Assembly: GCA_025455885.1 (NCBI GenBank)
Contig: JALOLR010000003.1
Coordinates: 186,001-250,000 of the forward strand
DNA length: 64,000 bases
Origin: Acidimicrobiales bacterium
GTDB lineage: Bacteria > Actinomycetota > Acidimicrobiia > Acidimicrobiales > Acidimicrobilacustridaceae
Direction of reading: 5' to 3'
Shown: positions 37,897-54,033 of the stretch, piece by piece
How positions within the stretch are numbered: the first letter of the stretch is position 1
Layout of the letters: the number at the start of each line of letters is the position of its first letter
Notes under the pieces: model-generated
Database searches by the model: none
Told to the model about the DNA's origin: nothing
Seen by the model: only the letters and a program-made list of their open reading frames with translations
Position numbers and translations under genes: made by a program

Positions 37897-37985
37897 CGAG
37901 CAAGTCTCCTGGCTCACCCTGACGGTCGCCTGAACCGGCCCGACCCGGCCGGTCGGATGCCGGGCGCGGGATCGTCCCCCGGATG

Positions 37986-38001
37986 TGTGACCGTGTTCAC
38001 C
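37986..38001. promoter_or_regulatory. CRP-like site TGTGA-N6-TCACC
   Basis: TGTGACCGTGTTCACC differs from the CRP consensus TGTGA-N6-TCACA at one base. It lies just upstream of the -10 candidate TACTGT (38008-38013), which ends eight bases before the ATG of the acyl-CoA dehydrogenase. Bound protein would overlap the promoter and so may repress. A Crp/Fnr gene lies at 55045. Confidence 0.45.
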
Positions 38002-38021
38002 TTTGGCTACTGTCTCGCCCC

Positions 38022-39197
38022 ATGGAGATCGGGTACACACCGGAACAGGAAGCCTTCCGCGGCGAGCTGCGGGCCTACTACGACCAGCTGCTCGACGACG
38101 AGACGGTCGAGGAGCTCTCCCACAGCCACGGCATCGGGGACGCCACCAAGCGAGTGTGGAAGCAGATGTGCGCGGACGGTTGGGCGGGCGTCGGGTGGCC
38201 GAAGGAGTGGGGTGGTCAGGGGCGCAAGGCCATCGACCAGTTCGTCTTCTTCGACGAGTCGATGCGGGCCGGGGCTCCGGTGCCGATGCTCACGATCAAC
38301 ACGGTCGGCCCGACGATCATGAACTACGGCACCGACTGGCAGAAGGAGTTCTTCGTCCCGAAGATCCTCGCCGGCGACATCCACTTCTGCATCGGGTACT
38401 CCGAGCCCCAGGCCGGCACCGACCTCGCTGCGCTGCAGACCCGGGCGGTGCGTGACGGCGACGAGTACGTCATCAACGGCCAGAAGATGTGGACCTCCCT
38501 CGCCGGTGGGGCCGACTACTGCTGGTTGGCGGTCCGCACCGATCCCGAGGCCAAGAAGCACAAGGGCATCTCGGTGATCATCGTTCCGATGGACACGCCC
38601 GGCATCACCATCCAGCCCCTCACCCTCATGGGCGAGCACGACATCAACGCCACGTTCTTCGACGACGTGCGGGTGCCGGCCAAGTACCTGGTCGGCGAGG
38701 AGAACGGCGGTTGGGGGCTCATCACCAACCAGCTGAACCACGAGCGGGTCACCCTGTGCTCGAGCGGCATGCCCGAGGGCATCCTGAACGACGTGCGCAA
38801 GTGGGCCCAGGAGACGACCCTGCCCGACGGGCGCCGGGTGATCGACCAGGAGTGGGTGCAGCTCAACCTGGCTCGCGTCCACGCCCGACTCGAGTACCTC
38901 CGCCTCGCCAACTGGAAGGTGGCGTGGTCGGCCGAGGAGCACGCCCTGCACCCGGCCGACGCCTCGAGCGTCAAGGTGTTCGGCACCGAGTTCTACCTCG
39001 AGGCCTACCGGCTCCTGATGGAGGTCCTCGGGCCGCGCAGCTACCTGAAGGCCGATGCCCCGGAGTCGATCCTGCGCAGTCGCCTGGAGGGCGGCATCCG
39101 GGGATCGATCATCCTCACCTTCGGCGGTGGCACCAACGAGTTGCAGCGCGACCTCATCGCCATGTTCGGCCTCGGCTTCCCGCGCTCGGCGCGCTGA
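38022..39197 (+). CDS. Acyl-CoA dehydrogenase, FadE26/ChsE4-like subunit
   Basis: A 391-residue acyl-CoA dehydrogenase with FCIGYSEPQAGTDLAALQTRAV, INGQKMWTSLAGGADYCWLAVRT, NQLNHERVTL and FGGGTNELQRDLIAMFGLGFPR. The GWPKEWGGQGRK block and length resemble the larger subunit of actinobacterial heterotetrameric dehydrogenases of steroid side-chain degradation (FadE26/27 type). Probably leaderless: TACTGT ends eight bases before the ATG. The partner gene follows 39 bp later. Steroid specificity is inference. Confidence 0.9.
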   Translation: MEIGYTPEQEAFRGELRAYYDQLLDDETVEELSHSHGIGDATKRVWKQMCADGWAGVGWPKEWGGQGRKAIDQFVFFDESMRAGAPVPMLTINTVGPTIMNYGTDWQKEFFVPKILAGDIHFCIGYSEPQAGTDLAALQTRAVRDGDEYVINGQKMWTSLAGGADYCWLAVRTDPEAKKHKGISVIIVPMDTPGITIQPLTLMGEHDINATFFDDVRVPAKYLVGEENGGWGLITNQLNHERVTLCSSGMPEGILNDVRKWAQETTLPDGRRVIDQEWVQLNLARVHARLEYLRLANWKVAWSAEEHALHPADASSVKVFGTEFYLEAYRLLMEVLGPRSYLKADAPESILRSRLEGGIRGSIILTFGGGTNELQRDLIAMFGLGFPRSAR

Positions 39198-39236
39198 GCC
39201 GTCCAACCATCCACGAACGCACGGACGAAAGCACCC

Positions 39237-40298
39237 ATGGACTTCTCCTTCACCTCCGATCAGGACGAGCTGCGCGGCCTCACCAACCGGCTCCTCAGCG
39301 ACAAGGCCGGTCCCGAGCACCTCACCGCCGTCCGTGAGAGCGACACCGGTGTCGACCTGGCGCTGTGGCGCGAGATGGCCGAGCTGGGCCTGGTGGGCAT
39401 CGGCCTGCCCGAGTCGGTCGGCGGCGGCGGCCTCGGCTTCACCGAGGCGGCCATCGTGCTCGAGGAGGTCGGCCGGTTCGTGGCCCCGGTTCCGGCGCTG
39501 CCCGTCATGGCCATGGTCGGCCCGCTCCTCGCCGAGCACGGCACCGCCGAGCAGTGGGCGGGTCTCGCCTCCGGCGAGCGCGTCGTCACCGTGGCCCTCC
39601 ACGAGATGGTCGGCGACGTCATGGAGCCTGCGCTGACCGCCGACGGCGGACGCCTCACTGGGGTCAAGGTGTGCGCACCCTTCGGTCACGTCGCCGACGC
39701 CTTCGTGGTGTCGGCCGCCGACGGCCTCTACTACGTGCCCGCCGACGCCGACGGCGTGACCGTCACCCGCCAGGACACCGTCGACGACATCCCCGACGCC
39801 ATGGTCGAGCTCGCCGGTGCGCCCGGCCAGAAGCTCACCGGGCCCGAGGGCCTCCGGTCCCTCGTCGAGCGGGGGCTCGCCGGCCAGTGCGTGATGATGG
39901 CCGGGATCACGGCGCAGGCCATCGAGCTGACCTCCGCCTACGTGAAGGAGCGGGTCCAGTTCGACCGGGTGATCGCCACGTTCCAGGCCGTCGCCCAGCG
40001 GGCCGCCGACGCCCGGATCGACAGCGAGGCCATCTGGCTCACGGCCTGGCAGGCCGTGGCGCTCATCGACGAGGGCGAGCCGGCCGCCGAGCAGGTCGCC
40101 TCCGCCAAGTACTGGGCGGCCGAGGGCGGGCAGCGCGTCGTGCACGCCGCGGTGCACCTCCACGGCGGCGTGGGTGTCGACCGCGACTACCCGCTGCACC
40201 GCTACTACCTCTGGACCAAGTACCACGAGCTCTTCCTCGGCGGCACGACTCCCAGCCTGCTCAGGCTCGGCCGGTTGCTCGCCGACACGCCGGTCTAG
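39237..40298 (+). CDS. Acyl-CoA dehydrogenase, FadE27/ChsE5-like partner subunit
   Basis: A 353-residue acyl-CoA dehydrogenase relative: MAELGLVGIGLPESVGGGGLGFTEAAIVLEEVGRFVAPVPALP, VKERVQFDRVIATFQAVAQRAADA and HLHGGVGVDRDYPLHRYYLWTKYHELFLGGTTPSLLRLG. This is the pattern of the smaller partner in heteromeric dehydrogenases. The organisation (large gene, then small) is the reverse of the pair at 13152-15383. Two hairpins follow, marking the operon end. Confidence 0.9.
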   Translation: MDFSFTSDQDELRGLTNRLLSDKAGPEHLTAVRESDTGVDLALWREMAELGLVGIGLPESVGGGGLGFTEAAIVLEEVGRFVAPVPALPVMAMVGPLLAEHGTAEQWAGLASGERVVTVALHEMVGDVMEPALTADGGRLTGVKVCAPFGHVADAFVVSAADGLYYVPADADGVTVTRQDTVDDIPDAMVELAGAPGQKLTGPEGLRSLVERGLAGQCVMMAGITAQAIELTSAYVKERVQFDRVIATFQAVAQRAADARIDSEAIWLTAWQAVALIDEGEPAAEQVASAKYWAAEGGQRVVHAAVHLHGGVGVDRDYPLHRYYLWTKYHELFLGGTTPSLLRLGRLLADTPV

Positions 40299-40310
40299 CG
40301 CCGGCGCCGG

Positions 40311-40344
40311 CCGGGTCCCACCGTCGGGGGGTGGTGGGACCCGG
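40311..40344 (+). terminator. Hairpin terminator after the acyl-CoA dehydrogenase pair
   Basis: A perfect 12-bp stem (CCGGGTCCCACC / GGTGGGACCCGG) with a 10-base G-rich loop starts 13 bp after the stop codon. Confidence 0.75.
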
Positions 40345-40368
40345 TCCGAGGTCAACGGAGGGGGAATC

Positions 40369-40402
40369 CAGATCGGTCCCGGCCCCGGCCGGGACCGATC
40401 TG
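40369..40402. terminator. Second, bidirectional hairpin terminator
   Basis: A perfect 16-bp inverted repeat (CAGATCGGTCCCGGCC and its complement) with only two bases between the arms lies between convergent genes and can serve both strands. Confidence 0.75.
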
Positions 40403-40423
40403 CGTCCGGGCCCCGTCGACGGA

Positions 40424-41200
40424 TCAGCGCACCAGGTAGACCATGGCCACGACGATGCCGATGGCGACGACGATCCACCGGAACACCGCCGGGTGGAGCC
40501 GACCGGCGAGCCGGCCGCCGAGGTTGCCGCCCACCAGGGCCCCGACGGCCATCACCGCGGCAGCTCCCCACCACACCCGTCCCGAGAAGACGAAGAAGAG
40601 GCTGGCGGTCACGTTCACGACCACCGACATCGCCTGCTTGAGGGCGTTCACGTCGGTGAGGTCGTCGGGGAGGAACACGCCGAGCACGGCGAGGAACACG
40701 ATGCCGAGTCCGGCGCCGAAGTAGCCGCCGTAGATCGACGCGAGGAAGACCATCGCCACGGCCGCGGTCGTCAGGCCGTGATCGGCGACGGACCGGTCCG
40801 CCCCGGATCGGGTCCGGCGGCGTTCGATGACGGAACGAACCCGGTCCTGTCCGGCGAGGAGGGCGCAGGCGAAGAGGATGAGGAAGGGGATGAGCCGCTC
40901 GAGCAGGTCGTCGCCGGTGGCCAGCAGCAGCAGCCCGCCGAGGAGCCCGCCGAAGGCCCCGGCCGGGGCCAGGACCCGCAGCCGGTCCCGCTGGGCGCGC
41001 ACGGAGCCTCGCTGCGCGTAGGCGCCGCCGACGTAGCCGGGGGAGAGCGACACGGTCGACGTGACGTTGGCCGACACGATGGGCAGGCCGACCGCGGTGA
41101 GCGCCGGGAAGGAGATGAGGGTCCCGCCGCCCGCGACCGCGTTGACGAACCCGGCGGCTGCACCGGCGGCGGCGACGAGGAGCAGTTCGATCGGGCTCAC
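40424..41200 (-). CDS. TSUP-family (TauE/SafE-like) membrane permease
   Basis: A 258-residue membrane protein of about eight helices in two related halves: AAGFVNAVAGGGTLISFPALTAVGLP (first signature) and IYGGYFGAGLGIVFLAVLGVFLPDDLTDVNALKQ (second). TSUP proteins move sulfite, sulfoacetate, taurine-derived anions or other small organic anions; many in actinobacteria are uncharacterised. GTG start. Convergent with the acyl-CoA dehydrogenase pair across two terminators and divergent from a pirin gene. Confidence 0.87.
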   Translation of the reverse strand: MSPIELLLVAAAGAAAGFVNAVAGGGTLISFPALTAVGLPIVSANVTSTVSLSPGYVGGAYAQRGSVRAQRDRLRVLAPAGAFGGLLGGLLLLATGDDLLERLIPFLILFACALLAGQDRVRSVIERRRTRSGADRSVADHGLTTAAVAMVFLASIYGGYFGAGLGIVFLAVLGVFLPDDLTDVNALKQAMSVVVNVTASLFFVFSGRVWWGAAAVMAVGALVGGNLGGRLAGRLHPAVFRWIVVAIGIVVAMVYLVR

Positions 41201-41297
41201 GCCTCATCCTCGCCCAGCCGCGTCGACCGTCGGGGCGATGTCGTCCGGGAATGCCCCGATGTTGAGGAGTGTGAACGACACGCGAGGAGACACCGTC

Positions 41298-42008
41298 ATG
41301 GACGCTGCGATCGATGTCCGTCGAGCGGACACCCGGCCCCACACCCGCATCGGGTGGCTCGACAGCCGCCACAGCTTCAGCTTCGGGCGCCACTACGACC
41401 CCACCAACACCGGCCACGGGCTGTTGTTGGTCTCCAACGACGACCGGGTCGCCGCCGGCACCGGGTTCAGCACCCACCCCCACCAGGACATGGAGATCGT
41501 GACGTGGGTGCTGTCGGGCCGGCTCGAGCACAAGGACTCCGAGGGCAATCACGGCGAGCTGTACCCCGGGTTGGCCCAGCGGATGAGCGCCGGGACCGGT
41601 ATCTGGCACTCGGAGATGAACCCGTCGCGGGGCGAGGACGTGCACTTCGTGCAGATGTGGGTGCCGCCCGACACCGAGCGCGTCGACCCGTCCTACGAGC
41701 AACGCGACATCAACTCGGAGCTCGACCGGGGTGGGCTCCAGCCGATCGCCTCGGGGCAGGGTCATGACGCCGCGATCACCATCCGCCAACGAGATGCCGT
41801 CCTCTGGGGCGGCCGGTTGAAGGCGGGGGAGACCGTCGCGGTGCCTGACGCCCGGCACGTCCACCTCTTCGTGGCCCTCGGCGAGGCCGGGCTCGAAGGG
41901 GCCGGGCCCTTGGCCGAGGGGGACGCCGTACGACTCACCGCCGCCGGCTCGCCGTCGCTCACCGCCGGGCCGAGCGGCGCCGAGGTGCTCGTCTGGGCCA
42001 CTGCCTGA
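41298..42008 (+). CDS. Pirin family protein
   Basis: A 236-residue bicupin of the pirin family. RHSFSFGRHYDPTNTGHGLLLVSNDDRV, HPHQDMEIVTWVLSGRLEHKDS and GIWHSEMNPS hold the three His and one Glu of the metal site. Bacterial pirins include quercetinases and redox-linked regulators. The ATG follows GAGGAGA; longer upstream frames are not supported. It lies between a permease and a cation exchanger with no operon partners. Confidence 0.9.
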   Translation: MDAAIDVRRADTRPHTRIGWLDSRHSFSFGRHYDPTNTGHGLLLVSNDDRVAAGTGFSTHPHQDMEIVTWVLSGRLEHKDSEGNHGELYPGLAQRMSAGTGIWHSEMNPSRGEDVHFVQMWVPPDTERVDPSYEQRDINSELDRGGLQPIASGQGHDAAITIRQRDAVLWGGRLKAGETVAVPDARHVHLFVALGEAGLEGAGPLAEGDAVRLTAAGSPSLTAGPSGAEVLVWATA

Positions 42009-42016
42009 GGGCGTGG

Positions 42017-42943
42017 TCAGGGCCCGCCGGCCACGACCAGGACGGTGAAGAGCACATAGGTGCCGACGAGGACGCCGCCTCGCCAGCGGTCGAGGGTGAG
42101 GCGGCGGTTCGGGACCAGCAACAGGATGCTCACCGCCCCCATCACGAGGCTGAGCGCGACCTCGCCGAGGGCGACGTCGAAGGGACGCAGGATCGTGAGC
42201 ACCGACACGATCCAGAGCCCGTTGAAGATGTTCGACCCGACGATGGCGCCGAGCCCGATCTCCTCGTGGCCCCGGAGCCCGGCGGCTAGGACGGTGGCCA
42301 ACTCGGGCATCGAGGTGCCGAAGGCGACGAACGTGGCGCCGACCACGAACGGGTCGAGACCGAGGCTGTCGCCGATCGCCTCGGCGGCGACGACGATCAG
42401 CCGCCCGGCGACGACGAGGAGCCCGAGGCCGACCAGCGTGACCACCACCGCCCGCCCTCGCTTCCGTTCGCCGAGCACCTCGACGGAGTCGGCGCGGGCG
42501 CGACGGGCGTGGCGCACCGTGACGCCGAGCCAGATCGCGAACACGGTGAGCAGCACGGCGCCGTCGAGGCGGGACATGGTGCCGTCGGCGACGAGCGCGA
42601 GGATCAGGAAGGGCACGGCGACCGCCACCGGGAGGTCGCGGCGGACGGTGGCCCGTTCGGCGGTCAGCGGCCGGATCAACAGTGCGAGCCCGAGGATGAG
42701 GCCGACGTTGGCGACGTTGGAGCCGAGGGCGTCGCCGAAGGCGATGGCCGACGTGTCGTCGGCGGCCGCGCTCAGGGCCACGAAGAACTCCGGGCTCGAG
42801 GTCGCGAACGCGGCGACCGTGACGGCGATGATGGCCGCCGGCACGCGGGCCCATGCGGCGATCCCGACCGCGCCGCGGACGAAGAGCTCCCCTCCGGCGG
42901 CTGCGGCGGCGATGCCGGCGAGCAGGGTGACGGCGGTGGTCAT
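42017..42943 (-). CDS. Sodium/calcium exchanger family (CaCA) protein
   Basis: A 308-residue membrane antiporter with both alpha-repeats: ATSSPEFFVALSAAADDTSAIAFGDALGSNVANVGLILGLA and GTSMPELATVLAAGLRGHEEIGLGAIVGSNIFNGLWIVS. Each repeat has the Glu and Ser/Asn residues of the ion site, with TSSPE and TSMPE cores. About ten helices, YrbG-like size. ATG with GGAGGA upstream is used. Convergent with the pirin gene, with only eight bases between the stops. Confidence 0.88.
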   Translation of the reverse strand: MTTAVTLLAGIAAAAAGGELFVRGAVGIAAWARVPAAIIAVTVAAFATSSPEFFVALSAAADDTSAIAFGDALGSNVANVGLILGLALLIRPLTAERATVRRDLPVAVAVPFLILALVADGTMSRLDGAVLLTVFAIWLGVTVRHARRARADSVEVLGERKRGRAVVVTLVGLGLLVVAGRLIVVAAEAIGDSLGLDPFVVGATFVAFGTSMPELATVLAAGLRGHEEIGLGAIVGSNIFNGLWIVSVLTILRPFDVALGEVALSLVMGAVSILLLVPNRRLTLDRWRGGVLVGTYVLFTVLVVAGGP

Positions 42944-43064
42944 GATCCTCCGGGCGTGGTTCGGCGTGTGCCGACCAGGCTTCCCGGCGCTCCGGAGCCC
43001 GAGGATAGCGAGCCTCCGGGAGGGCAACGGGCGTGGAGCGGAGCCTCCGTGGTCCAATGGGGCA

Positions 43065-43749: not shown

Positions 43750-44658
43750 TCAGCGTGTCGACGGCCCCGACGCTGTGGCCCCCTGTTCGGCGTGGTGCGG
43801 GAGCAGCGAGAGCCCGAGGGCGGCGAGCACGGCGCAGTGGACGGCCCGGGAGCCGAGTCCGATCACCAGCGTGTCCGGGGCGGCCCGGTACGTGAACAAC
43901 AGCACGGCCGCGAGCGCGATGGTCCCCCCGCCCACCGCTCGTCGCGCTGCGGCGCCGGCACCGGCCAGCAGCCAGGTGCCGATGCCCACCGCGATGAAGA
44001 CGAGCCCGAGGGCGACGGAGCCGGGGAACACCGAGACGCCGAACTCGTCGGGGATGTCGTTGCGCCCCGTGAACAGCGTCCGGGTGATGTTGTCGTCACC
44101 GGTGAACCCGGCCGCGAGGTTGGTGACGGCGACGGCCGCGCCGTAGACGGCGGCGACGACGCCCATCGAACGGGCGGAGTGCGGGTGGGAGCGACCGGCT
44201 TGGACGAGCACGGCGATGCTCAACCCGAACATCAGCAGGTACGACCAGTACCACTCCTCGGGGGCGTTGGCCACGGCCAGGCCGATGCCCAGCGCCTGGA
44301 GCCCGCTCACCACCGCGGCGGTGCGCAGCGCCCGTCCGCTGAGCAGCGCGGCGGCCACGAAGACCTCGACGAACAGCGTCATCCACCCGAACGCCGAGAT
44401 CTGGGTCAGCACCACGTTCTCGAACACCCACGCCGACCCGGGGACCACCGGGTGGTCGACACCGGCCTGCACGAAGTTGCGCAGGCCCCCGAACTCCGTC
44501 GGCACCTTCCAGTTCACGTTCGACAGCCACATCAGGCCGAGCAGCCATCGCACGACGATCGGCCCGACGTCGCGCACGGCGTGGTCGACCGTGGCCGCCA
44601 CCCGGTCTCGGCGGGCCCACCAGCTGTCGTCCTCGACTCCCACGTCCGATCCAGCCAT
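43750..44658 (-). CDS. DoxX/DoxD-like membrane protein (TQO small-subunit type)
   Basis: A 302-residue membrane protein with about seven or eight helices. The N-terminal domain (VRWLLGLMWLSNVNWKVP, then GVDHPVVPGSAWVFENVVL, FGWMTLFVEVFVAAALLSG and VANAPEEWYWSYLLM) strongly resembles DoxD, the small subunit of thiosulfate:quinone oxidoreductase. The C-terminal half is a further set of helices. ATG at 44658 preferred; a GTG at 44682 would overlap the upstream gene. It ends the radical SAM cluster, giving it a membrane redox component (inference). Confidence 0.8.
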   Translation of the reverse strand: MAGSDVGVEDDSWWARRDRVAATVDHAVRDVGPIVVRWLLGLMWLSNVNWKVPTEFGGLRNFVQAGVDHPVVPGSAWVFENVVLTQISAFGWMTLFVEVFVAAALLSGRALRTAAVVSGLQALGIGLAVANAPEEWYWSYLLMFGLSIAVLVQAGRSHPHSARSMGVVAAVYGAAVAVTNLAAGFTGDDNITRTLFTGRNDIPDEFGVSVFPGSVALGLVFIAVGIGTWLLAGAGAAARRAVGGGTIALAAVLLFTYRAAPDTLVIGLGSRAVHCAVLAALGLSLLPHHAEQGATASGPSTR

Positions 44659-44672
44659 GTGGTCCCGTCCGG

Positions 44673-45665
44673 TCAGGCGCACGGGAACGTGCTGGCCAGC
44701 ACGTCCCCCCGCAGTCGGTGCTCGCGTAGCTCGTCGGTGACCGCCTCGATCACCGCGCCCAGCGGGCGCCAGTCGTCACCGACGCGCATGGCGGGATCGG
44801 TGGCCGCCACCGGGTGCCACCACACACCCTCGGCCGTGACGCACACCTCGGGCAGCAGCGACGCCCGGGACACCGTGAGCCCCGCGTTGGCGGCGCCCTG
44901 TCGGGCGATTCGGCGCACGACCCGTTGGCGATCGGTGAGCCCGAGCTCGTCGAAGAAGGCGTCGAGCTTGTCCGCCTCCGGGCCGGCGTCTGCGCCGAGC
45001 GTCGCCGCCACCCGGACGTCGAAGCCGAGCTCCAGGGCGAGGTGGATCCCGGCGACGGCCCGGGCGTGGCTCCCTGCGCCGCGGTGGCGGTCGTGGAGGT
45101 GGGCGTCGACCGAGTCGAGGCTGATCTGGAGGGTGAGTCCGTCGCGGGGCAGCGCCTCCAGGCGGCGTCGGCGCTCGCCGGTCCAGACCATGGCGTTGGT
45201 CAGCACCGTGGTGGGGATCCGGCCCACGGCGTGCCCGAGGCGGTCGTCGAGGTCGAGCAGGAGGAAGGGCTCCCCGCCGGTCACGTAGAGCTCGGCGACA
45301 CCGTGGTCGAGCGCGGCGTCGACGAGCGCTGCGAAGTCCCCCACACCGACGGTCCGGGGCGCGGCCCGCGGGGACGAGGCCACGCAGCAGTAGTCGCAGG
45401 CCAGGTTGCAGTGGAAGTTCGTGTACACCCAGAGGCGGTGCCCGGGCCGGCGCTCCGGTGGCAGCGCGGCGATCGGATCGTCGATGGGCCCGCGGTGGAC
45501 CTCGACGCCCTCGGCGTGCACGGCCAGCACGGTGTTCGAGGTCGCCCGGCACCACTCGGCCACGACGTCGACCTCGGCGGGTCCGTCGACGGCCACGATG
45601 CACGTCGACCCGGCGGCGGTCGCACCGACCTCCTCGACGAGCCGGCTGACGAGCTCGAAGCTCAT
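44673..45665 (-). CDS. Radical SAM protein with N-terminal TusA-like domain
   Basis: A 330-residue fusion. Residues ~1-60 (GSTCIVAVDGPAEVDVVAEWC, then TVLAVHAEGVEVHRG) align well with the C-terminal two-thirds of TusA sulfur carriers, but the CPxP cysteine is missing. Residues ~76-250 are a radical SAM core: NFHCNLACDYCC with Cys86, Cys90 and Cys93 for the 4Fe-4S cluster, VTGGEPFLL for SAM binding and LQISLDSVD later. No SPASM-type cysteine set is seen at the C terminus (only Cys275 and Cys329). Likely a cofactor or small-molecule modifying enzyme; the partner genes are a PhnD-like and a DoxD-like gene. Confidence 0.85.
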   Translation of the reverse strand: MSFELVSRLVEEVGATAAGSTCIVAVDGPAEVDVVAEWCRATSNTVLAVHAEGVEVHRGPIDDPIAALPPERRPGHRLWVYTNFHCNLACDYCCVASSPRAAPRTVGVGDFAALVDAALDHGVAELYVTGGEPFLLLDLDDRLGHAVGRIPTTVLTNAMVWTGERRRRLEALPRDGLTLQISLDSVDAHLHDRHRGAGSHARAVAGIHLALELGFDVRVAATLGADAGPEADKLDAFFDELGLTDRQRVVRRIARQGAANAGLTVSRASLLPEVCVTAEGVWWHPVAATDPAMRVGDDWRPLGAVIEAVTDELREHRLRGDVLASTFPCA

Positions 45666-45708
45666 CGCGGTGGCGGCGCGTCGGCGCGTGGGTCGGGGCG
45701 CGGTGCCA

Positions 45709-46530
45709 TCACCAGTGGTCGGCGATCCCTTGGGCGGTCATCGCCTCGTCCAGCGAGGCATAGCCGTCGAGCTCGGCGCGCTTCCACTCCCGCAGCCCTT
45801 CGAGCTCGAGCACCCGCCGGTGGTCCGGGTCGTCCCAGGACATGGCGAGGAGGTGTCGAACCCAGGCCTCGGCACGACCGTCGTCGAGGCTGTCGAGTGC
45901 CGTGAAGTTGCAGTGGTTGTAGGGCTCGGACTCCCAGATCACCTCGAAGTCGGCGATGCCCGCATCACCCGCTGCAGAGAGGGCCTGCCAGGTGTTGACG
46001 CCCACGGCCGCGACGTCGGCCTCGTCCTCGGCGACCGCCCTGAGCGCATCGAGGTCCGAGCGGCCGGTGTCGCCGTGCTTGCCGACGTCGCTGTCGAAGA
46101 GGATCAACTCGACCTCGTCGGTCCCGATGCCCTCCCGTTCGAGGAACCACAGCGGGAGGATGCGCGCCTGGCCGGAGTCACGCGACCCCAACGCCACCCG
46201 GGCGCCCCGCACCCCGGTGAGACCGTCGCGACCTCCGCCCTTGCGCCCGATCATCAGGGTCGTGAACACCAGGTCGGTGTCGCGCATGGCCAGGGCCCGG
46301 GCCGATCCGCCCGTGCGGCGCAGCGTGCGGATCCAGGCCACGTTGGTGTTCCAGGCGAGGTCGACGTGGCCGGCGAGCAGTGCGTCGACCTGACGCTCGT
46401 AGTTCGAGTAGAGGACGTAGTCCATGGGGACGGGGGCGTCGCGGAAGTAGTCGCGCATCCCCTCCCAGATCGGCACCACGTTCGGGGAGTAGGCCACGGC
46501 GCCCACCACCATCGGTTCGGGTTCGGTCAT
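45709..46530 (-). CDS. PhnD-like substrate-binding-fold protein without signal peptide
   Basis: A 273-residue protein of the PhnD/SsuA substrate-binding family. VGAVAYSPNVVPIWEGMRDYF, DALLAGHVDLAWNTNVAWI and VALGSRDSGQARILPLWFLEREGI are the ligand-cleft blocks; NHCNFTALDSLDD is near the C terminus. The N terminus (MTEPEPMVVGAVAYSP) has no signal or lipobox, so the protein should stay in the cytoplasm, unlike transporter components. No permease or ATPase gene is nearby. It may bind or hand over a small anion or serve as an enzyme. ATG with GAGGATC upstream. Confidence 0.82.
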   Translation of the reverse strand: MTEPEPMVVGAVAYSPNVVPIWEGMRDYFRDAPVPMDYVLYSNYERQVDALLAGHVDLAWNTNVAWIRTLRRTGGSARALAMRDTDLVFTTLMIGRKGGGRDGLTGVRGARVALGSRDSGQARILPLWFLEREGIGTDEVELILFDSDVGKHGDTGRSDLDALRAVAEDEADVAAVGVNTWQALSAAGDAGIADFEVIWESEPYNHCNFTALDSLDDGRAEAWVRHLLAMSWDDPDHRRVLELEGLREWKRAELDGYASLDEAMTAQGIADHW

Positions 46531-46570
46531 CGGGGGATCCTCGTCGGGTCGGTCGGGTCGGTCGGGGACG

Positions 46571-47704
46571 TCAGAACAGGTCCATGCCGCACAGGGCCCG
46601 CCCGGCGAAGTCGAACAACGCATCGGAGGTGGGCGCCATCACGAACCCCGCCCGGGCGTCACGGTAGGGCCGATCGATGCCCACCTGCTTGGAGAACGCC
46701 GCGCCCCCCGCGACCCTCAGGGCGGTCTCGGTGACCGACAACGCCATCTCGTTGCAGCCCGCCTTGGTGGCCAGCACGGCGAGCACCGTCCCCTCGTCGG
46801 GTTCGGCCACCCGCCGGGCGGTGTCGGCGAGGAGAGTCTCGTGGGCTCGCAGCGAAGTCCACGCCTTGGCCACGTAGGCCCGCACGGTGGGCAGGTCGGC
46901 GATCGCGGTGTCGAGGTGGTCGAAGCGGGACCCGCTGACGTGGGCCACCGCCCGGTCGAGGGCCGCCCGGGCCAACCCGACCGACACCGCCGAGTTGCCG
47001 AGCGCGAACCACGGCAGGACGATCTGCATCATCTGCCCGAAGCCGCTCGCCGCCGGCCCGAGGCGGTCGGCCTCGGTGACGGTCGCCGAGAGGTTCGCCG
47101 GGGCGGAGTCGTTGCCCCGCAGGCCGAGCCCGTCGAAGCGCCCGTCCACCGAGACGCCCGGTTGGGTGCGGCGCACGAGGTACAGCTCGGACTCCATCGG
47201 CCCACCGACGTCGGCGGGCCGGACCGACGACACCCACACGTCGGCTTCCCGGGCCGAGGTCACCCAGCTCTTCCTGGCCTCGAGCAGCCATCCGCCGTCG
47301 GTGGGCTGGAGCTGCGACACCGGAGCCCAGAAGTGGCTGCGCGATCCGGCCTCGGAGAAGGCCAGGGTCGCCAGTGCCGAACCCTCGGCGAGCTCTCGCC
47401 GCAGGTCCTCACGCCCGCCGTCCGCGGTGGCGTCGATGACCGCGCTCGACACGAGGTGCATGAGCAGCACCATCGACGTCGATCCGCAGGCGTGGGCGAC
47501 CGACGACATCGTCGTCACGAACTGCGCAGGCGTCGCCCCGAGCCCGCCGACGTCCTCGGGCAGCAGGAGCCCGAGCAGGCCCTCCTCGGTCAGTGCGTCG
47601 ATCGACGCCCGGGGGAACACCGCATCGGCGTCGACCCTGTCGGCTTCGGTCACCAGCACGGGCAGCGCCCGGTCGAGGCGGTCGCGGAGGGCAACGTCGT
47701 CCAT
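46571..47704 (-). CDS. Acyl-CoA dehydrogenase-like flavoprotein, possible monooxygenase
   Basis: A 377-residue acyl-CoA dehydrogenase-fold protein. LLLPEDVGGLGATPAQF, TLAFSEAGSRSHFW and the ending YRDARAGFVMAPTSDALFDFAGRALCGMDLF mark the branch related to flavin monooxygenases (DszC/SfnC-like) rather than beta-oxidation enzymes: the YGGTTEI block and the usual catalytic Glu are absent. First gene of the radical SAM cluster. ATG with AAGGA upstream. It shares an A+T-richer divergent promoter region (47705-47868) with the glycosylation cluster. Confidence 0.82.
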   Translation of the reverse strand: MDDVALRDRLDRALPVLVTEADRVDADAVFPRASIDALTEEGLLGLLLPEDVGGLGATPAQFVTTMSSVAHACGSTSMVLLMHLVSSAVIDATADGGREDLRRELAEGSALATLAFSEAGSRSHFWAPVSQLQPTDGGWLLEARKSWVTSAREADVWVSSVRPADVGGPMESELYLVRRTQPGVSVDGRFDGLGLRGNDSAPANLSATVTEADRLGPAASGFGQMMQIVLPWFALGNSAVSVGLARAALDRAVAHVSGSRFDHLDTAIADLPTVRAYVAKAWTSLRAHETLLADTARRVAEPDEGTVLAVLATKAGCNEMALSVTETALRVAGGAAFSKQVGIDRPYRDARAGFVMAPTSDALFDFAGRALCGMDLF

Positions 47705-47868
47705 GGCGGTCGTTCCTTCGTCGTCGGTGGGGCCCGTCGAAGCGGGTCGGGCGATGGCCGCCGAACGTAGTGAGGGCCCCGGCTTCGCGGAAGGGGACAG
47801 GAACCGGATTTCGGGATTGTTGTGATCTGTTCGGCCACGGCTCGCAGGCGTGCATGGTGGAATGAGGC

Positions 47869-49239
47869 GTGCTCGCCTCGCCCGCCCCGGCCGGGACCGG
47901 ACCCCGCGATCGGCCCGCAGCCCGCGACGTCGCGCCGGTCGTCGGGGCGCCCGGGATCGGGTTGGTCGTGCCCACGGTCGCCGCACTCGCGGTGTGGGTC
48001 CTGTTCGTCGTCGTCGCCCGGGCGTGGGGCCTGCACCTGGAGGCGACGGGCACGAAGCTGGTGCTGTTCACCCCCCCGGTCCTCGGGGGCTACCGGCAGC
48101 AGGTCCCCGTGGCGCTGGTCCCGATCGTCGCGCTCGGGATCGGATTGGCGGTGGTGCTCCCGCGCGCCGCCGGTGCGGCGCGCTGGGCCGCCGTCGTGGC
48201 GTCGGCCACGGCCGGCGCCGTCGCGTGGTGGGTCGGGTTGGCGCTGGTCGACGGACCGTCGGGGCTGACCCGCGGGTTGTACTTCGACGCCGACTACGCG
48301 GCGGCGGTGCAGCGGGTCGCCTCCGGTCCGGGCGCGTTCCTGGCCGACTACGTGCCCACCCTCGCCGGCGAGCCGATCGCCCTGCGCGGGCACCCCCCGG
48401 GGTTCGCGTTGCTCTTCGGCGCCCTCGAGGCGATCGGCCTCGGCGGCGAGCGGTGGGCGGCGGTCGTCGTCATCGTCGTCTCCTTGTCCGCCGTGCCGGC
48501 CGTGCTCGTCGCCGTCCGGACGATCGCCGGGGAGGACTGGGCCCGCCGCAGCGCTCCCTTCGTGGCCCTCACCCCGGCGGCGACCTGGATCGTGACGTCC
48601 ACCGACGGGGTGACCATGGCGACGGTGGCGTGGGCGGTGGCCCTCCTGGCGCTGGCCGGCCGGAGTGCTCGCACCCACCGGGCGGACCTCCTCGCCGTCG
48701 GGGCGGGGGTGCTGTCGGCGGCGGCGGTGCTGCAGTCCTACGGCATGGCCCTCGCCGCGGTCCCCGTCCTGGCGGTGGCGTGGCACCAGCGTCGGTGGCG
48801 ACCGTTGCTGGTGGCCGGCACCGCAGCGGCAGGAGTGGTGCTGGCCGTCGCCGGGTGGGGGTTCTGGCTGCTCGACGGGCTCGACGCCACGTTGCGCGAG
48901 TACCACACGCTCGACGTGGAGCGCCCCTACGGGTACTTCCTGTTCGCCAACTTCGGGGCCTGGGCGCTGGCCCTCGGTCCTGCCACCGCGGCCGGGTTGG
49001 CGCTGCTGCGCGACCGGCGCATGTGGGTGATCGTCGGTGGAGGCCTGGCGGCGGCCGTGCTGGCCGGCGTGAGCGGGCTCTCCGAGGGCGAGGTCGAGCG
49101 GATCTGGCTCCCGTTCACCCTGCTCGTCCTCCCGGCGGCGGCGTGCCTCTGGCGGAGCCGACGCCAGGCCACCGGGTGGTTGCTCGTCCAGGTCGGCTCC
49201 GCCGTCGTGTTCACCGGTGTCATCGGGGCCAACTGGTGA
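47869..49239 (+). CDS. Integral membrane glycosyltransferase-like protein (GT-C type)
   Basis: A 456-residue membrane protein with 11-13 helices. FDADYAAAVQRVASGPGAFLADYVPTL after the third or fourth helix is the Asp-containing periplasmic loop, and RGHPPGFALLFGALEAIG follows, as in polyprenol-sugar-dependent GT-C enzymes and mycobacterial relatives. It would transfer a sugar from a polyprenyl phosphate at the outer face of the membrane. GTG start shortly after GAGG. It heads a run of epimerase, DUF2064 and GT2 genes, a coherent glycan-building set. Confidence 0.78.
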   Translation: MLASPAPAGTGPRDRPAARDVAPVVGAPGIGLVVPTVAALAVWVLFVVVARAWGLHLEATGTKLVLFTPPVLGGYRQQVPVALVPIVALGIGLAVVLPRAAGAARWAAVVASATAGAVAWWVGLALVDGPSGLTRGLYFDADYAAAVQRVASGPGAFLADYVPTLAGEPIALRGHPPGFALLFGALEAIGLGGERWAAVVVIVVSLSAVPAVLVAVRTIAGEDWARRSAPFVALTPAATWIVTSTDGVTMATVAWAVALLALAGRSARTHRADLLAVGAGVLSAAAVLQSYGMALAAVPVLAVAWHQRRWRPLLVAGTAAAGVVLAVAGWGFWLLDGLDATLREYHTLDVERPYGYFLFANFGAWALALGPATAAGLALLRDRRMWVIVGGGLAAAVLAGVSGLSEGEVERIWLPFTLLVLPAAACLWRSRRQATGWLLVQVGSAVVFTGVIGANW

Positions 49240-49279
49240 AGCCGGGCGCAGGCCGGGCCCGGGTAGCGGAGCGAGTCGG

Positions 49280-50347
49280 ATGAGCCGCGTCCTGGTGACC
49301 GGTGGGGCGGGCTTCATCGGGTCGACGGTCGTCGATCTCCTCGTCGAACGGGGTCACGAGGTGACGGTGATCGACAACCTCCATCCCCTCGCCCACCACC
49401 GCCACCCCGACCACCTCGCGCCCGGGGTGCGCTACCACTGGGTCGACCTCCGTGAGGGCGACGCGCTCGACGGTCTCGTGCGGGGCATCGACGTCGTGTG
49501 CCACCAGGCGTCGATGGTCGGCCTCGGGGTCGACTTCGACGACGTCGCCGACTACGTGGCCGACAACGATCTGGGGACCGCCAACCTCCTGCGGGCGCTG
49601 CACCGCGACCGGTTCGCGGGGCGCATCGTGCTGGCCAGCTCGATGGTCGTCTACGGCGAGGGTCGCTACCGGTGCCCGGCCCACGGTGTGGTGCGGCCCG
49701 GCCGTCGTCGGGCCGAGGACCTGGCGGCCGGCGTCTACGAACCACCGTGCCCGGCGTGCGCCGGGCCCCTCGAGTCGGTCGACGTGCCCGAGGACGCCCC
49801 CCTCGAGCCGCGCAACGTGTACGCCGCCACCAAGCTCCACCAGGAGCACCTCTGCCAGAGCTACGCCGCCGACCACGACGGCACGCTCGTGGCGCTGCGC
49901 TACCACAACGTCTACGGCCCACGGATGCCGAGGAACACCCCCTACGCGGGGGTGGCGAGCATCTTCCGGTCGGCGGCCGAACGCGGTGAGGCCCCGCTGG
50001 TCTTCGAAGACGGCGGTCAGCGGCGCGACTTCGTGCACGTGCGCGACGTGGCGCGGGCCAACGTCGTCGCCGTCGAGGCCCCTCCCGACGTGGCCGGCGC
50101 CTTCAACGTGGCCTCGGGCGAGCCGCACACCGTGCTCGACATGGCGGAGGCCCTCGTGTCGGCGATCGCCGCCCGCGACGACGGTCCGCTCCCGCCCCCG
50201 CCCCGGGTGGTGGGCGGCCATCGACCCGGCGACGTCCGCCACATCGTGGCTTCCCCGGTGCGGGCCGCCGAGGTGCTCGGCTTCCGGGCCGGGATCGGCT
50301 TCGCCGAGGGGATGGCCGAGTTCGCCCATGCGCCGCTGAGGGACTGA
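49280..50347 (+). CDS. NAD-dependent nucleotide-sugar epimerase/dehydratase with Cys/His insertion
   Basis: A 355-residue extended SDR: VTGGAGFIGSTVVDLLVERG at the N terminus, VCHQASMVGLGVD, Ser in LASSMVVYGEG and YAATK (NVYAATKLHQEHL). Between the Ser strand and the Tyr lies an insertion RYRCPAHGVVRPG...PPCPACAGPL with three Cys and a His, which looks like a zinc-ribbon loop. The rest (RYHNVYGPRMPRNTPYAGV) is typical of UDP-glucose epimerase and dTDP-sugar enzymes. ATG at 49280. It should supply a sugar nucleotide to the glycosyltransferases alongside. Confidence 0.88.
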   Translation: MSRVLVTGGAGFIGSTVVDLLVERGHEVTVIDNLHPLAHHRHPDHLAPGVRYHWVDLREGDALDGLVRGIDVVCHQASMVGLGVDFDDVADYVADNDLGTANLLRALHRDRFAGRIVLASSMVVYGEGRYRCPAHGVVRPGRRRAEDLAAGVYEPPCPACAGPLESVDVPEDAPLEPRNVYAATKLHQEHLCQSYAADHDGTLVALRYHNVYGPRMPRNTPYAGVASIFRSAAERGEAPLVFEDGGQRRDFVHVRDVARANVVAVEAPPDVAGAFNVASGEPHTVLDMAEALVSAIAARDDGPLPPPPRVVGGHRPGDVRHIVASPVRAAEVLGFRAGIGFAEGMAEFAHAPLRD

Positions 50348-50352
50348 CCGGG

Positions 50353-51018
50353 GTGATCGTCTGCGTGCTCGCCAAGGAGCCTCGACCGGGCTTCGTCAAG
50401 ACCCGCCTGTGCCCCCCGTTCACCCCTGACCAGGCCGCCGAGCTCGCCGAGGCCTGCCTGCACGACACCATGGACGCGGTGTCCGCGACGCCCGACTCGG
50501 TGCCGCTCGTCGTGCTCGACGGGCGCCCCGGGTCATGGCTGCGCAGCGGGACCGGCTGCGTCCCCCAGGTCGACGGCGCCTTCGGTGACCGCCTCCAAGC
50601 GGCCGTGGACGAGGGGTTCCGGCGTCTCCCCGGAGGCCCGGTCGTGGTCATCGGGATGGACACCCCCCAGGTCACCCCCACGCTGCTCGTCCGGGCGCGG
50701 CGGGCGCTGGATCCGGGCGACGGCTCGACCGGCGACGAGAGCGGTTCGACCCGAGCGGTGCTCGGTCCGGCGACCGACGGCGGGTACTGGCTGATCGGCT
50801 TCTCCCGTCCGGTGGCGGGCGCGTTCGCGGGGGTCCTGATGAGCGCGTCGACGACCGGTGCCGCCCAGCTCGCCCGACTGGAGGAGTTGGGCTGTCGGAC
50901 GGTGCTGATCGACGAGCTGACCGACGTCGACGACGCGGTCTCCGCCCGTCGTGTGGCCGACGCCGCCCCCGGCACCGGCTTCGCCCGTGCGCTGGCGAGG
51001 CTCGGACCGGCGCGGTGA
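50353..51018 (+). CDS. DUF2064-family nucleotidyl/glycosyltransferase-like protein
   Basis: A 221-residue protein of the DUF2064 (TIGR04282) family: VCVLAKEPRPGFVKTRLCP is the N-terminal nucleotide-binding signature, VVVIGMDTPQVTP the metal-binding SDxP equivalent, and GPATDGGYWLIGFSR the third block. The fold is a GT-A/nucleotidyltransferase. GTG start five bases after the epimerase stop and GTGA overlap with the next gene. Presumably helps make an activated sugar or polyol for the cluster. Confidence 0.86.
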   Translation: MIVCVLAKEPRPGFVKTRLCPPFTPDQAAELAEACLHDTMDAVSATPDSVPLVVLDGRPGSWLRSGTGCVPQVDGAFGDRLQAAVDEGFRRLPGGPVVVIGMDTPQVTPTLLVRARRALDPGDGSTGDESGSTRAVLGPATDGGYWLIGFSRPVAGAFAGVLMSASTTGAAQLARLEELGCRTVLIDELTDVDDAVSARRVADAAPGTGFARALARLGPAR

Positions 51019-51677
51019 CCGCTCCGGCGGAGGTCGACGTGGTGCTGCCGGTGCTCGACGAGCGCGACGCCCTCCCGTGGGTGCTCGAGCGGATGCCCCC
51101 CGGGTTCCGGCCCCTCGTGGTCGACAACGGCTCGACCGACGGCTCGGCCGACGTCGCCCGAGGCCTGGGCGCCCGGGTCGTCGAGGAGCCCCGCCGGGGC
51201 TTCGGGTCAGCGTGCTACGCCGGACTCTGCGCCGCCGAGGCCCCCTGGGTGGCCTTCATGGACTGCGACGCGTCCCTCGATCCCGGCGATCTCACGGCGG
51301 TGGCCGGAGGCGTCCTCGACGGCTCGTTCGACCTGGTCCTGGGGGCCCGCGACGCGGCTCCGGGCGCGTGGCCGGTCCATGCCCGCCTGGCCAACCGGTA
51401 CCTGGCTCGGCGGCTGCGGCGCCGGTTCGGCTTCGGGATCACCGATCTGGGCCCGATGCGGGTCGCCGACCGGGAGAGGCTGCTGTCGCTCGGACTCCGG
51501 GACCGCCGCTCGGGGTGGCCCCTCGAGATGCTGGTGCGGGCCGGCCAGGAGCAGTGGTCGGTCGGGGAGGTGGTGGTGCCCTACGCCCCCCGGCAGGGCC
51601 GGTCGAAGGTGACCGGGACGGTCCGGGGGACCGTCCAGGCGGTGCGGGACATGCGGCGCCAGATCCGCCGCGCCTGA
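51015..51677 (+). CDS. Family 2 glycosyltransferase
   Basis: A 220-residue GT2 enzyme: VVLPVLDERDALPWVLERMP, VVDNGSTDGSADVARGLGARVVEEPRRGFGSACYAGL, and FMDCDASLDPGDL holding the metal-binding DxD-like acid. The C terminus PYAPRQGRSKVTGTVRGTVQAV is typical of polyprenyl-phosphate sugar synthases. It has no membrane helices, so it is a soluble or peripheral DPM/GtrB-like enzyme. It could make the polyprenyl-phosphate sugar used by the GT-C protein encoded at the head of the cluster. Confidence 0.88.
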   Translation: MTAPAEVDVVLPVLDERDALPWVLERMPPGFRPLVVDNGSTDGSADVARGLGARVVEEPRRGFGSACYAGLCAAEAPWVAFMDCDASLDPGDLTAVAGGVLDGSFDLVLGARDAAPGAWPVHARLANRYLARRLRRRFGFGITDLGPMRVADRERLLSLGLRDRRSGWPLEMLVRAGQEQWSVGEVVVPYAPRQGRSKVTGTVRGTVQAVRDMRRQIRRA

Positions 51678-52211: not shown

Positions 52212-52268
52212 CGCGGCGGGTCGACGCCGCTGCTGCGGTGTGGTCGATCCCCTTCGGCGTCGGGTGGG

Positions 52269-53990
52269 TCAGACCTCGACGGTGTAGGTGTCGCGCCCGG
52301 CCTTCAGCAGGGTGCCGGGCACGGCGCCGGTGGCCTCACCGTCGACGATGACGGTCGTGCCGTTGACCAGCACCCGTTCCACGCCGAAGGAGCCGGCGGT
52401 GAGGCGCTCGCACCCCCCCGGGAGGTCGGCCACCATGTGGGCGTTCTCGCTGCCCACCGTCTCGGGGTCGATCACCGCGATGTCGGCGGCCTTGCCGACC
52501 TCGAGGGTGCCGCGGTCGCGCAGGCCGAACAGCTCGGCGGGCACCTGGGTGATGAGCTGCACGGCCCGCTCGAGCGGCACCAGCTTGCGACCCCGGATCA
52601 TGTCGCCGAGGAAGCGGGTGGGGTAGGTGGCGCCGCACATGCGGTCGAGGTGGGCGCCGGCGTCGGACCCGCCGATCATCGCCCGGGGGTCGTCCCACGC
52701 CTCGGCCCGCATCTTCCAGGTGGCGTCGTCCTTGTCCTTGGGTGCCGGCCACAGGATGGTGCGCAGCTCGTCGGCGGTCACGATGTCGAGCAGGGTGTCG
52801 AAGGGCTCGGTGCCCCGCTCGGCGCTGATGTCGGCGACCGTGCGGTTGGAGACGCCTTCGTTCTCCGGCGAGAACGTGTCCCCGATGACGTACTCGTCCC
52901 AGTCGGCCAGTCGTCGGTACACGCCTGCTTCCTGGGAGTGCGAGGCCTCGAGCATCCGGGCCCGGACCTCGGGATCGCGGAGGCGGGTGATCCGCTCCTC
53001 GACGTCGACCTGGAGGATGTCCTGCCAGCCGGGCAGCAGCCAGATGCCGCAGAACGTGAGGAAGTTCATGTTCATCGGCACGAGTACCGGCATGGTGAGC
53101 GCCACGACCCGTCCGCCCAACTCGGCGGCGCGGTCGCCGGCGGACAGCTGGCGGGGTACCCGATCGGCCTCCCGGCTGTCGATGGTGAGCACGTTCCAGT
53201 TGAGTGGTCGCTTGGCGGCGGCGCTCATCTCGGCCAGCAGCTCGATCTCGTGGTCCTCGAAGCGGTCGAGGCACCCCGGGACGATGCCCTCGAGGGTGGT
53301 GCCCTCGTGCCGGCCGGTCTCGGTGCACAGCGCCATGAGCTCCTCGGTGGTCGACCAGCGGCTCGGCACCGGCTGGCCGTCGCCGTCGCTGTGCGAGCCC
53401 GACAGCGTGGTCGAGAACCCCAGCCCGCCGGCCTCGATGGCCGTGCGCAGCTCGGCGACCATCGCCTCGATCTGTTCGGGGCTGGCCTCGTTGCCGACGG
53501 CGTCGGCGCCCATCACGTAGCGGCGCAGCGCGCAGTGCCCGACGAGGAACCCGGCGTTGACGGCGATCTTGCCCTCGAACTTCGAAAGGTAGTCGGCGAA
53601 GGTCTCCCAGTCCCAGTCGATCTGGCGCAGGGCCGGGAGCGGCATGCCCTCGACCCTCGACATCATCTCCTGGAGGTACTCGGTCTCGGCGGGATCGGGG
53701 CGCAGAGGGGCGAGGGTGAAGCCGCAGTTGCCGGCGATCACCGTCGTGACGCCGTGGTTGGCCGAGGGCGACGCGCCCGGGTCCCACATGAGCTGGGCGT
53801 CGTAGTGGGTGTGGGGGTCGACCACGCCCGGCATCACGATGCGGCCGGTGGCGTCGGTGACGGTGGTGGCGTCCTCGGCGATGTCGCCGATGGCGACGAT
53901 GCGCCCGTCGCGGATGCCGACGTCGGCGACCCGGGCCGGGGCCCCGGTGCCGTCGACGACCGTGCCGCCCCTGATGATCTCGTCGAGCAT
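52269..53990 (-). CDS. N-acyl-D-amino-acid deacylase-like amidohydrolase (COG3653)
   Basis: A 573-residue metal-dependent hydrolase. IIRGGTVVDGTGAPARVADVGIRDGRI opens the small beta domain, GVVDPHTHYDAQLMWDP has the HxH metal site, and IGGSDAGAHLDRMCGATYPTRFL carries the late Asp. The protein is longer than typical D-aminoacylases (~480 residues). Such proteins occur in actinobacterial degradation loci where the amide substrate is unknown. ATG with AAGGGG upstream. Divergent from an F420-type gene across a perfect palindromic operator, so both are probably controlled together. Confidence 0.87.
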   Translation of the reverse strand: MLDEIIRGGTVVDGTGAPARVADVGIRDGRIVAIGDIAEDATTVTDATGRIVMPGVVDPHTHYDAQLMWDPGASPSANHGVTTVIAGNCGFTLAPLRPDPAETEYLQEMMSRVEGMPLPALRQIDWDWETFADYLSKFEGKIAVNAGFLVGHCALRRYVMGADAVGNEASPEQIEAMVAELRTAIEAGGLGFSTTLSGSHSDGDGQPVPSRWSTTEELMALCTETGRHEGTTLEGIVPGCLDRFEDHEIELLAEMSAAAKRPLNWNVLTIDSREADRVPRQLSAGDRAAELGGRVVALTMPVLVPMNMNFLTFCGIWLLPGWQDILQVDVEERITRLRDPEVRARMLEASHSQEAGVYRRLADWDEYVIGDTFSPENEGVSNRTVADISAERGTEPFDTLLDIVTADELRTILWPAPKDKDDATWKMRAEAWDDPRAMIGGSDAGAHLDRMCGATYPTRFLGDMIRGRKLVPLERAVQLITQVPAELFGLRDRGTLEVGKAADIAVIDPETVGSENAHMVADLPGGCERLTAGSFGVERVLVNGTTVIVDGEATGAVPGTLLKAGRDTYTVEV

Positions 53991-54033
53991 GGCGAACCCC
54001 TTCGTTGACGCCGGCGTGCGTCGGCGCACGTTT

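Follow-up and report, generated by a model that had tools for sequence, protein, structure and literature searches.

An Rv1678-Rv1681-type gene set beside a methylthioxylose-type operon in an Acidimicrobiales bacterium

Introduction

The gene set described here occupies positions 43750-47704 of a 64,000-nt stretch of DNA from an Acidimicrobiales bacterium (assembly GCA_025455885.1, contig JALOLR010000003.1, positions 186,001 to 250,000 of the forward strand). The whole stretch is called the window, and coordinates are positions within it unless a contig or locus is named. Two mycobacterial gene groups are the closest described systems. In M. tuberculosis, Rv1678-fadE16-Rv1680-Rv1681 (moeX) encodes the same four protein families. 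The open-licence literature was searched, and no paper was found in it on the function of these families or linking the Rv1678-Rv1681 names to methylthioxylose (MTX). A preliminary description of the window had put the four genes forward as its best candidate for an undescribed system; this holds as far as function papers are concerned and fails in that NCBIfam already names these families for Rv1678-Rv1681. The second group is devoted to MTX. PMC8780516 assigns the synthesis and transfer of this sugar to MtxS (Rv0539) and MtxT (Rv0541c), and PMC5911930 describes a dedicated five-gene cluster, present in M. smegmatis too. According to PMC11127046, the donor is derived from 5'-methylthioadenosine (MTA); its carrier is decaprenyl phosphate, and the enzyme used is of the GT-C type. 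One paper (PMC6472883) names both Rv1678-Rv1681-type genes and MTX genes, as separate diagnostic antigens.

The four window genes are read here as an accessory module of an MTX-type pathway, forming one eight-gene unit with a divergent operon. Membership of the module in such a pathway is considered fairly probable, and any single biochemical step proposed for it is held with little confidence. The observations behind this reading are a conserved gene set, its linkage to sugar genes, joint absence in two relatives, a TusA-like fold without its cysteine, and the exchange of a radical SAM domain for a diiron-type domain. The protein families are known; what appears to be new is the link between module and MTX genes, together with the eight-gene unit and the domain exchange.

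Organization of the locus

The features of the locus were as follows.

43750..44658, minus strand: DoxD-like membrane protein, Rv1678-like; the frame is open from a GTG at 44682, and the ATG start at 44658 gives a 14-bp gap
44673..45665, minus strand: radical SAM (rSAM) protein of the Rv1681 type; NF049973 match, CX3CX2C cysteines
45495..45665, minus strand: TusA-like domain (rSAM residues 1-57) without strand 1 and without CPxP; profile-profile comparison and structural model
45709..46530 (from ATG), minus strand: protein of PhnD-like substrate-binding-protein (SBP) fold, Rv1680 type; NF049985 match
46571..47704, minus strand: acyl-CoA-dehydrogenase-fold flavoprotein (ACAD), FadE16-like; NF049984 match below cut-off
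47705..47868, no strand: intergenic region of 164 bp separating two divergent operons
47869..49239, plus strand: membrane protein; no Pfam or NCBIfam family; 35-36% identity to the presumed GT-C protein of three mycobacterial MTX-type clusters
49280..50347 (scanned from 49283), plus strand: NAD-dependent epimerase (EPIM), GalE-like; Epimerase 2.6e-49; 53% identity to mycobacterial cluster homologues
50353..51018, plus strand: TIGR04282/DUF2064 CofC-like protein; TIGR04282 121.9 bits, under the cut-off of 134; DUF2064 8e-24, above its cut-off
51015..51677, plus strand: GT2, polyprenyl-phosphate glycosyltransferase-like; Glycos_transf_2 2.6e-16; 50-54% identity to mycobacterial cluster homologues

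Re-reading of the open reading frames confirmed the four minus-strand genes at the places first given, with gaps of 40, 43 and 14 bp. The divergent operon (47869-51677) starts 164 bp from them and encodes the membrane protein, EPIM, TIGR04282 and GT2. The same four genes, together with one for MTA phosphorylase (MTAP), form a single cluster in three mycobacterial genomes (loci L147-L149), with response regulator (RR) and histidine kinase (HK) genes in L149 only. The L147 MTAP is an S-methyl-5'-thioadenosine phosphorylase by its score (329 bits, cut-off 306). Identity between the four shared window proteins and their homologues in L147-L149 was 35-54%. The comparison was with clusters of mycobacteria, non-tuberculous ones among them, and not with the Rv proteins themselves. 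The other three of the five MTX genes are named here with the help of the gene content of L147-L149; Rv0535 and Rv0536 are taken to be further MTX genes and Rv0540 to be the TIGR04282 protein. By gene content, the divergent operon is of MTX type. A single putative MTA phosphorylase gene was found in the source genome, outside the operon (C5:95810-96532; 258 bits, under the cut-off of 275).

The GC content of the eight-gene block (72-75%) was like that of its surroundings (71-72%), and no integrase was recognised within the block. In nine relatives, each genome gave 4-12 matches to a flanking amidohydrolase-like gene (52269-53996).

Conservation of the four genes

A genome collection was scanned with five members, giving 248 candidates, of which the best 80 were kept as named loci. 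Counts rest on profile matches to stop-to-stop frames; full flanks were available in just 46 of the 80, and counts in the remainder are lower bounds. Within the flanks of the rSAM gene, an SBP gene was found in 78/80 named loci, an ACAD gene in 73/80 and a DoxD-like gene in 67/80. The order ACAD-SBP-rSAM on one strand was present in 62/80 (with gaps of at most 1021 and 183 bp). At 11/80 loci, SBP and then ACAD followed behind rSAM on the opposite strand, and the seven other loci were partial. The arrangement of these three genes is not a matter of chance, and the co-occurrence of families on which the preliminary description depended proved strongly conserved.

Second-tier rSAM proteins were matched 13 times, in 12 genomes (E 1e-53 to 1e-83), and only from profile position 49-72 onward. 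A CMD/AhpD-like gene accompanies a DoxD-like one at seven of these loci (L039-L045), and one of two AhpD-like proteins scanned was weakly like TIGR04169.

Other second-tier proteins are fusions. At L036 an Rv1681-like rSAM domain was fused behind a metallophosphoesterase-like domain (Pfam), with similar N termini at L033, L037 and L038. L035 also had such a domain behind a metallophosphoesterase-like domain; TIGR04282 and an MTAP-like gene were nearby in L035 and L036.

Linkage to the sugar genes

TIGR04282 was treated as the specific marker of the sugar genes; GT2, RR and HK counts may include unrelated members. It was found in the flank of 32/80 named loci, each time with GT2, in Actinomycetota, Acidobacteria and Bradyrhizobium. 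For the other 48 loci, 46/47 host genomes have TIGR04282 (two matches partial and weak), and the one miss is a 2.6-Mb assembly. In M. simiae, M. gastri, M. ostraviense and a Mycobacterium-like genome (G150), rSAM and TIGR04282 are 18-21 kb apart on the same contig. A phylum sample of 396 genomes was also searched (rSAM threshold E<=1e-50). The rSAM protein was present in 15 of these genomes, and TIGR04282 in 15/15 of them, compared with 119/396 overall (Fisher 8e-9, uncorrected for kinship among nine families). The two genes were no more than 20 kb apart in 9/15.

Two relatives of the source organism gave a further comparison. Congener G284 is collinear with the window, piecewise, over 36005-42945 and over 52273-60000; in place of the block it has about 3.3 kb of different sequence. 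A member of the same family, G618, is collinear over 36003-40313 and over 52267-60000, the two parts being separated by about 6.4 kb of different sequence. None of the eight block proteins had a match in the replacement stretch of either genome, and in G284 both rSAM (E<=1e-20) and TIGR04282 (E<=1e-8) were missing genome-wide. Among these three genomes the eight genes are present or absent jointly.

Streptomyces ISL-43 carries an EPIM/RR/HK/GT2/TIGR04282 cluster (L153) and, next to the module, another TIGR04282-GT2 pair (L152). This extra pair, and the frequent occurrence of the core without rSAM, suggest that the module is accessory and serves a variant sugar, not the basic one.

Other genes recur around these loci. 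A second radical SAM gene lies between TIGR04282 and GT2 in Bradyrhizobium L125, L129, L131, L132 and L135, with a SPASM domain in L131. A conserved protein is found beside the unit at L125:19009-19758 and at 10 further Acidobacteria/Bradyrhizobium loci; the L125 member had no Pfam or NCBIfam match. RR-HK pairs adjoin the sugar genes at L040, L043, L061, L106, L120 and L149.

The radical SAM protein and its N terminus

The rSAM protein matched NF049973 (Rv1681) at full length (432 bits, cut-off 380, residues 5-330 of 330) and Pfam Radical_SAM at 1e-17. The CX3CX2C cysteines C86, C90 and C93 were invariant across 40 sequences, as were C94 and C329, and no second invariant cysteine cluster was found in this alignment. 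SkfB, SuiB, BlsE, MoaA and AbmM were among the solved structures that sequence and fold searches related to the radical SAM part, BlsE being a nucleoside-sugar enzyme according to its title. A molybdopterin role, as in the moeX annotation, was rejected (48.4 bits against MoaA, cut-off 284).

The N terminus had been described as TusA-like, and both structure prediction and profile comparison agreed with this. The PF01206 (TusA) profile had no match at E<=0.001 in the source genome. When 25 rSAM N termini were compared with 14 actinobacterial TusA sequences by hhalign, a probability of 97.4 was obtained over 46 columns (P 9.5e-12); one unrelated profile, used as control, gave 0.1. The AlphaFold2 model of the whole protein (mean pLDDT 86) contains helix 3-14, strand 21-25, helix 29-41 and strands 45-49 and 53-57, which we take to be the TusA order minus strand 1. 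The longer N terminus of six Acidobacteria/Bradyrhizobium rSAM proteins could supply that strand. In a sequence search of the PDB with the N terminus, TusA-family structures ranked first, third and fourth, weakly (1pav 0.007; 1dcj 0.66; 3lvj 0.68), with a deacylase second; 1pav is presumably a member of the TusA family. Fold searches with the model covered residues 63-330 only and are uninformative on this region; no TusA structure stood among the matches listed.

CPxP was present in none of the 25 aligned N termini. It was also absent from the first 80 residues of the 40 aligned proteins (some rows start inside the domain) and from the six longer versions. Because the motif is missing from all N termini compared, the domain is assigned a TusA-like fold that, by motif, is not a sulfurtransferase. 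The preliminary description had suggested C-S bond chemistry or maturation of a sulfur compound as possibilities. In a relay of this kind the TusA-like domain would hand sulfur to the radical SAM domain. The fold fits this idea, and passages of PMC12691670 provide a precedent in AbmM, an rSAM enzyme that inserts sulfur into a furanose. The lack of CPxP in every N terminus compared, the lack of a second invariant cysteine cluster and the fact that no sulfurtransferase partner was recognised within the gene set nevertheless make such a relay very unlikely.

Exchange with an AurF-like diiron domain

In the class, 6/395 genomes carried second-tier members of the SBP-like family (6e-73 to 2e-64), followed there by a TusA-like/AurF-like fusion protein, with an ACAD-like gene at 5/6 loci. 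The TusA-like domain of the fusion gave an hhalign probability of 82.9 and matched PF01206 at 3e-4 in one and at 0.05 in another of four proteins scanned. The AurF-like part scored 29-33 bits (cut-off 29.6, exceeded by two of the four scanned) and contains conserved DEARH pairs. Six fusion sequences were read to the end, and all finish in HTRNFM. At E<1e-80 the fusion occurs in 7/396 phylum genomes, with ACAD at 7/7 loci and SBP called at 4/7. An MTAP-like gene lies at 3/7 of these loci (a curated model confirms that of L162), and 5/7 of the genomes have TIGR04282. In all, such modules were seen at 13 loci (L048-L053, L156-L162). Since the fusion replaces rSAM beside SBP and ACAD, a radical SAM domain and a putative O2-using diiron-type domain hold the same position among the same partners.

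Two further roles were considered from the surroundings of these loci and rejected. At L158:9487-17991, selB, selA and selD come after the TusA-AurF module; a selenium role would be in keeping with this and with a similarity to TIGR04553, but it was seen at one locus only. HypC/HypD-like genes were read by eye beside L048 (8886-10303) and a HypC-like gene beside L053 (10535-10942). A role in hydrogenase maturation was set aside, Hyp-like genes having been seen at these two loci without a systematic search elsewhere.

The fusion loci also bear on the possibility that the module makes a separate small molecule or cofactor and adjoins MTX-type genes because both share an economy of S-adenosylmethionine, MTA and 5'-deoxyadenosine. 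MTA phosphorylase could clear 5'-deoxyadenosine, core genes commonly occur without the module, and TusA-AurF modules are not next to TIGR04282, yet MTAP is present in 3/7 such loci. This explanation fails to predict GT2 with TIGR04282 in 32/80 flanks, the extra TIGR04282-GT2 pair of L152 or the joint absence from G284 and G618. It is considered improbable.

The SBP-like, flavoprotein and DoxD-like proteins

The SBP-like protein matched NF049985 (Rv1680) with 406.3 bits (cut-off 400) and Pfam Phosphonate-bd at 7e-28; its score against SsuA was 22 bits (cut-off 163.5). By name, the SBPs of solved structure closest to it bind phosphonate, phosphite or phosphate; AioX and ArrX are also among its solved relatives. 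K151-H-G-D154 and H206-C207 were invariant in 12/12 sequences, and this Lys-His-Gly-Asp and His-Cys pattern may point to catalysis. No signal peptide was seen by eye, about 8 residues preceding the first conserved stretch.

The flavoprotein has the Acyl-CoA_dh N, M and C domains of Pfam and matched NF049984 (Rv1679, FadE16) at full length over 7-377, with 463.7 bits, below the cut-off of 600. Its scores against DszC, SfnB and 3-sulfinopropanoyl-CoA desulfinase were 60, 88 and 92 bits (cut-offs 850, 431 and 600), and acryloyl-CoA reductase (97 bits) outscored these sulfur-related families. At what we take to be the position of the canonical C-terminal catalytic Glu of acyl-CoA dehydrogenases, Ala was found in 12/12 sequences.

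The DoxD-like window protein had no Pfam or NCBIfam match at E<=1, including NF049986. It finds a homologue at L040 (6e-22) that itself matches DoxD at 1.4e-8, which bears out the label given earlier. A second homologue, in G150 (4.6e-22), matches NF049986 Rv1678_C, the homology covering the N-terminal half. Across 24 rows of the family, Arg, Trp and Glu residues are invariant, but no cysteine is. The pLDDT of the predicted model was 78.

The last two proteins raise the possibility of S-oxidation, in which they would turn a methylthio group into a sulfoxide, outside the cell or at the membrane. Weak DszC-like and SfnB-like scores and the loss of the canonical Glu are in line with it, and the title of an MsrA paper cited in PMC5911930 suggests a sulfoxide form. 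The rSAM and SBP-like proteins would be left unexplained, no flavin reductase was recognised in the unit, and the DoxD-like family has no invariant cysteine; this alternative is regarded as highly unlikely. The sulfur flavour first ascribed to the set is weakly founded where it was argued from families (no CPxP; low SsuA, DszC and SfnB scores), and gains its support from the adjacent MTX-type operon, which lies beyond the coordinates first given for the set.

Proposed function

The preliminary interpretation is partly supported, in a different form. Because the four genes are found together with MTX-type genes, they probably modify a thiosugar. In the core pathway, MTA phosphorylase would open MTA or another 5'-substituted adenosine, the TIGR04282 protein would activate the sugar 1-phosphate, and GT2 would move the activated sugar onto polyprenyl phosphate. 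The GalE-like protein would then epimerise the lipid-linked sugar, and the membrane protein would transfer it outside. In the module, rSAM may act on a lipid-linked 5-thiopentose, changing its furanose ring or its 5-thio substituent, with C3 inversion or heteroatom exchange as the closest precedents. The inert TusA-like domain could provide docking or binding. The flavoprotein and the apparently cytoplasmic SBP-like protein may take part in the same step; the DoxD-like protein would act at the membrane. Passages of PMC12691670 describe an O-to-S exchange in a furanose by AbmM, with its own cluster as sulfur donor, and in passages of PMC9032320 AbmJ is thought to convert ribo to xylo. These are precedents by analogy, not evidence of the step here.

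A number of observations weigh against the proposed membership in an MTX-type pathway. The Fisher value is too strong because the TIGR04282 background differs by genus. EPIM (19/80 flanks) and the membrane protein (10/80) accompany the module less often than TIGR04282, and six Acidobacteria/Bradyrhizobium flanks have GT2 and TIGR04282 with neither of them. MTAP is near the module in only 8/80 loci and lies elsewhere in the source genome. TIGR04282 occurs without rSAM in 104/119 genomes, including 7/8 in the genus of G150. Second-tier rSAM proteins occur with DoxD and sugar genes but without ACAD and SBP. TIGR04282 and the TusA-AurF fusion are on different contigs in all five genomes that have both. 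Finally, the peptide enzymes SuiB and SkfB head the list of solved rSAM relatives, and AbmM, related at 7e-11, ranks only 13th with Foldseek and 45th with VIA.

More speculatively, the cysteine-less TusA-like domain, the flavoprotein and the PhnD-fold protein might form a cytoplasmic complex that offers a thiopentose, bound to a lipid or a nucleoside, to a radical-generating domain that can be exchanged: rSAM in some bacteria, an O2-using diiron AurF-like domain in others. Such a complex would yield an undescribed surface-glycan thio-sugar in Actinomycetota, Acidobacteria and Bradyrhizobium, and would give a function to Rv1678-Rv1681; this is put forward tentatively, as a possibility with the odds against it.

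A testable function is thereby offered for a gene set with homologues in M. tuberculosis, and the exchange of radical SAM for diiron chemistry beside the same partners would be of interest to enzymologists. MTX-type genes (at least GT2 and TIGR04282) were found here in Acidimicrobiia, Streptomyces, Acidobacteria and Bradyrhizobium. To our knowledge, most of these groups are not known for a lipoarabinomannan-type lipoglycan. This distribution bears on a question raised in PMC11127046, where the existence of MTX addition beyond lipoarabinomannan assembly is called unclear.

Comparison with known systems

The arsenosugar cluster (ArsS, TIGR04169, TIGR04282, TIGR04283) shares with the window an rSAM protein, TIGR04282 and a glycosyltransferase. 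TIGR04282 takes its name from arsenosugar clusters, the second-tier loci add an AhpD-like gene (weakly TIGR04169-like in one of two scanned), and AioX and ArrX are relatives of the SBP-like protein. The window rSAM belongs to a different family, with 29.4 bits against ArsS (TIGR04167; cut-off 300), no arsenic gene was recognised in the unit, and the gene set equals the MTX-type set. An arsenosugar-like (organo-element sugar) pathway is therefore the least probable of the alternatives weighed.

The window domain shares the fold of the TusA sulfurtransferase minus strand 1, and differs from it in missing the CPxP cysteine. The albomycin enzymes AbmM and AbmJ resemble the proposed step by analogy, as radical SAM chemistry on a thio-nucleoside furanose; AbmM is not the nearest solved relative of the window rSAM, and its partner genes differ.

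The four families of the Rv1678-Rv1681 type stand side by side in G150, where the membrane gene is first; it is last in the window set. Compared with the Rv1678-Rv1681 set, the window flavoprotein is under the FadE16 cut-off and the membrane protein is unmatched by NF049986. In M. tuberculosis the gene order is taken to be Rv1676-Rv1681, with the MTX cluster at a separate position. Homologues of the GT2, TIGR04282, epimerase and membrane protein of the mycobacterial five-gene MTX cluster lie in one operon in the window too, whereas the putative MTAP gene of the source genome is outside the operon and four more genes are attached.

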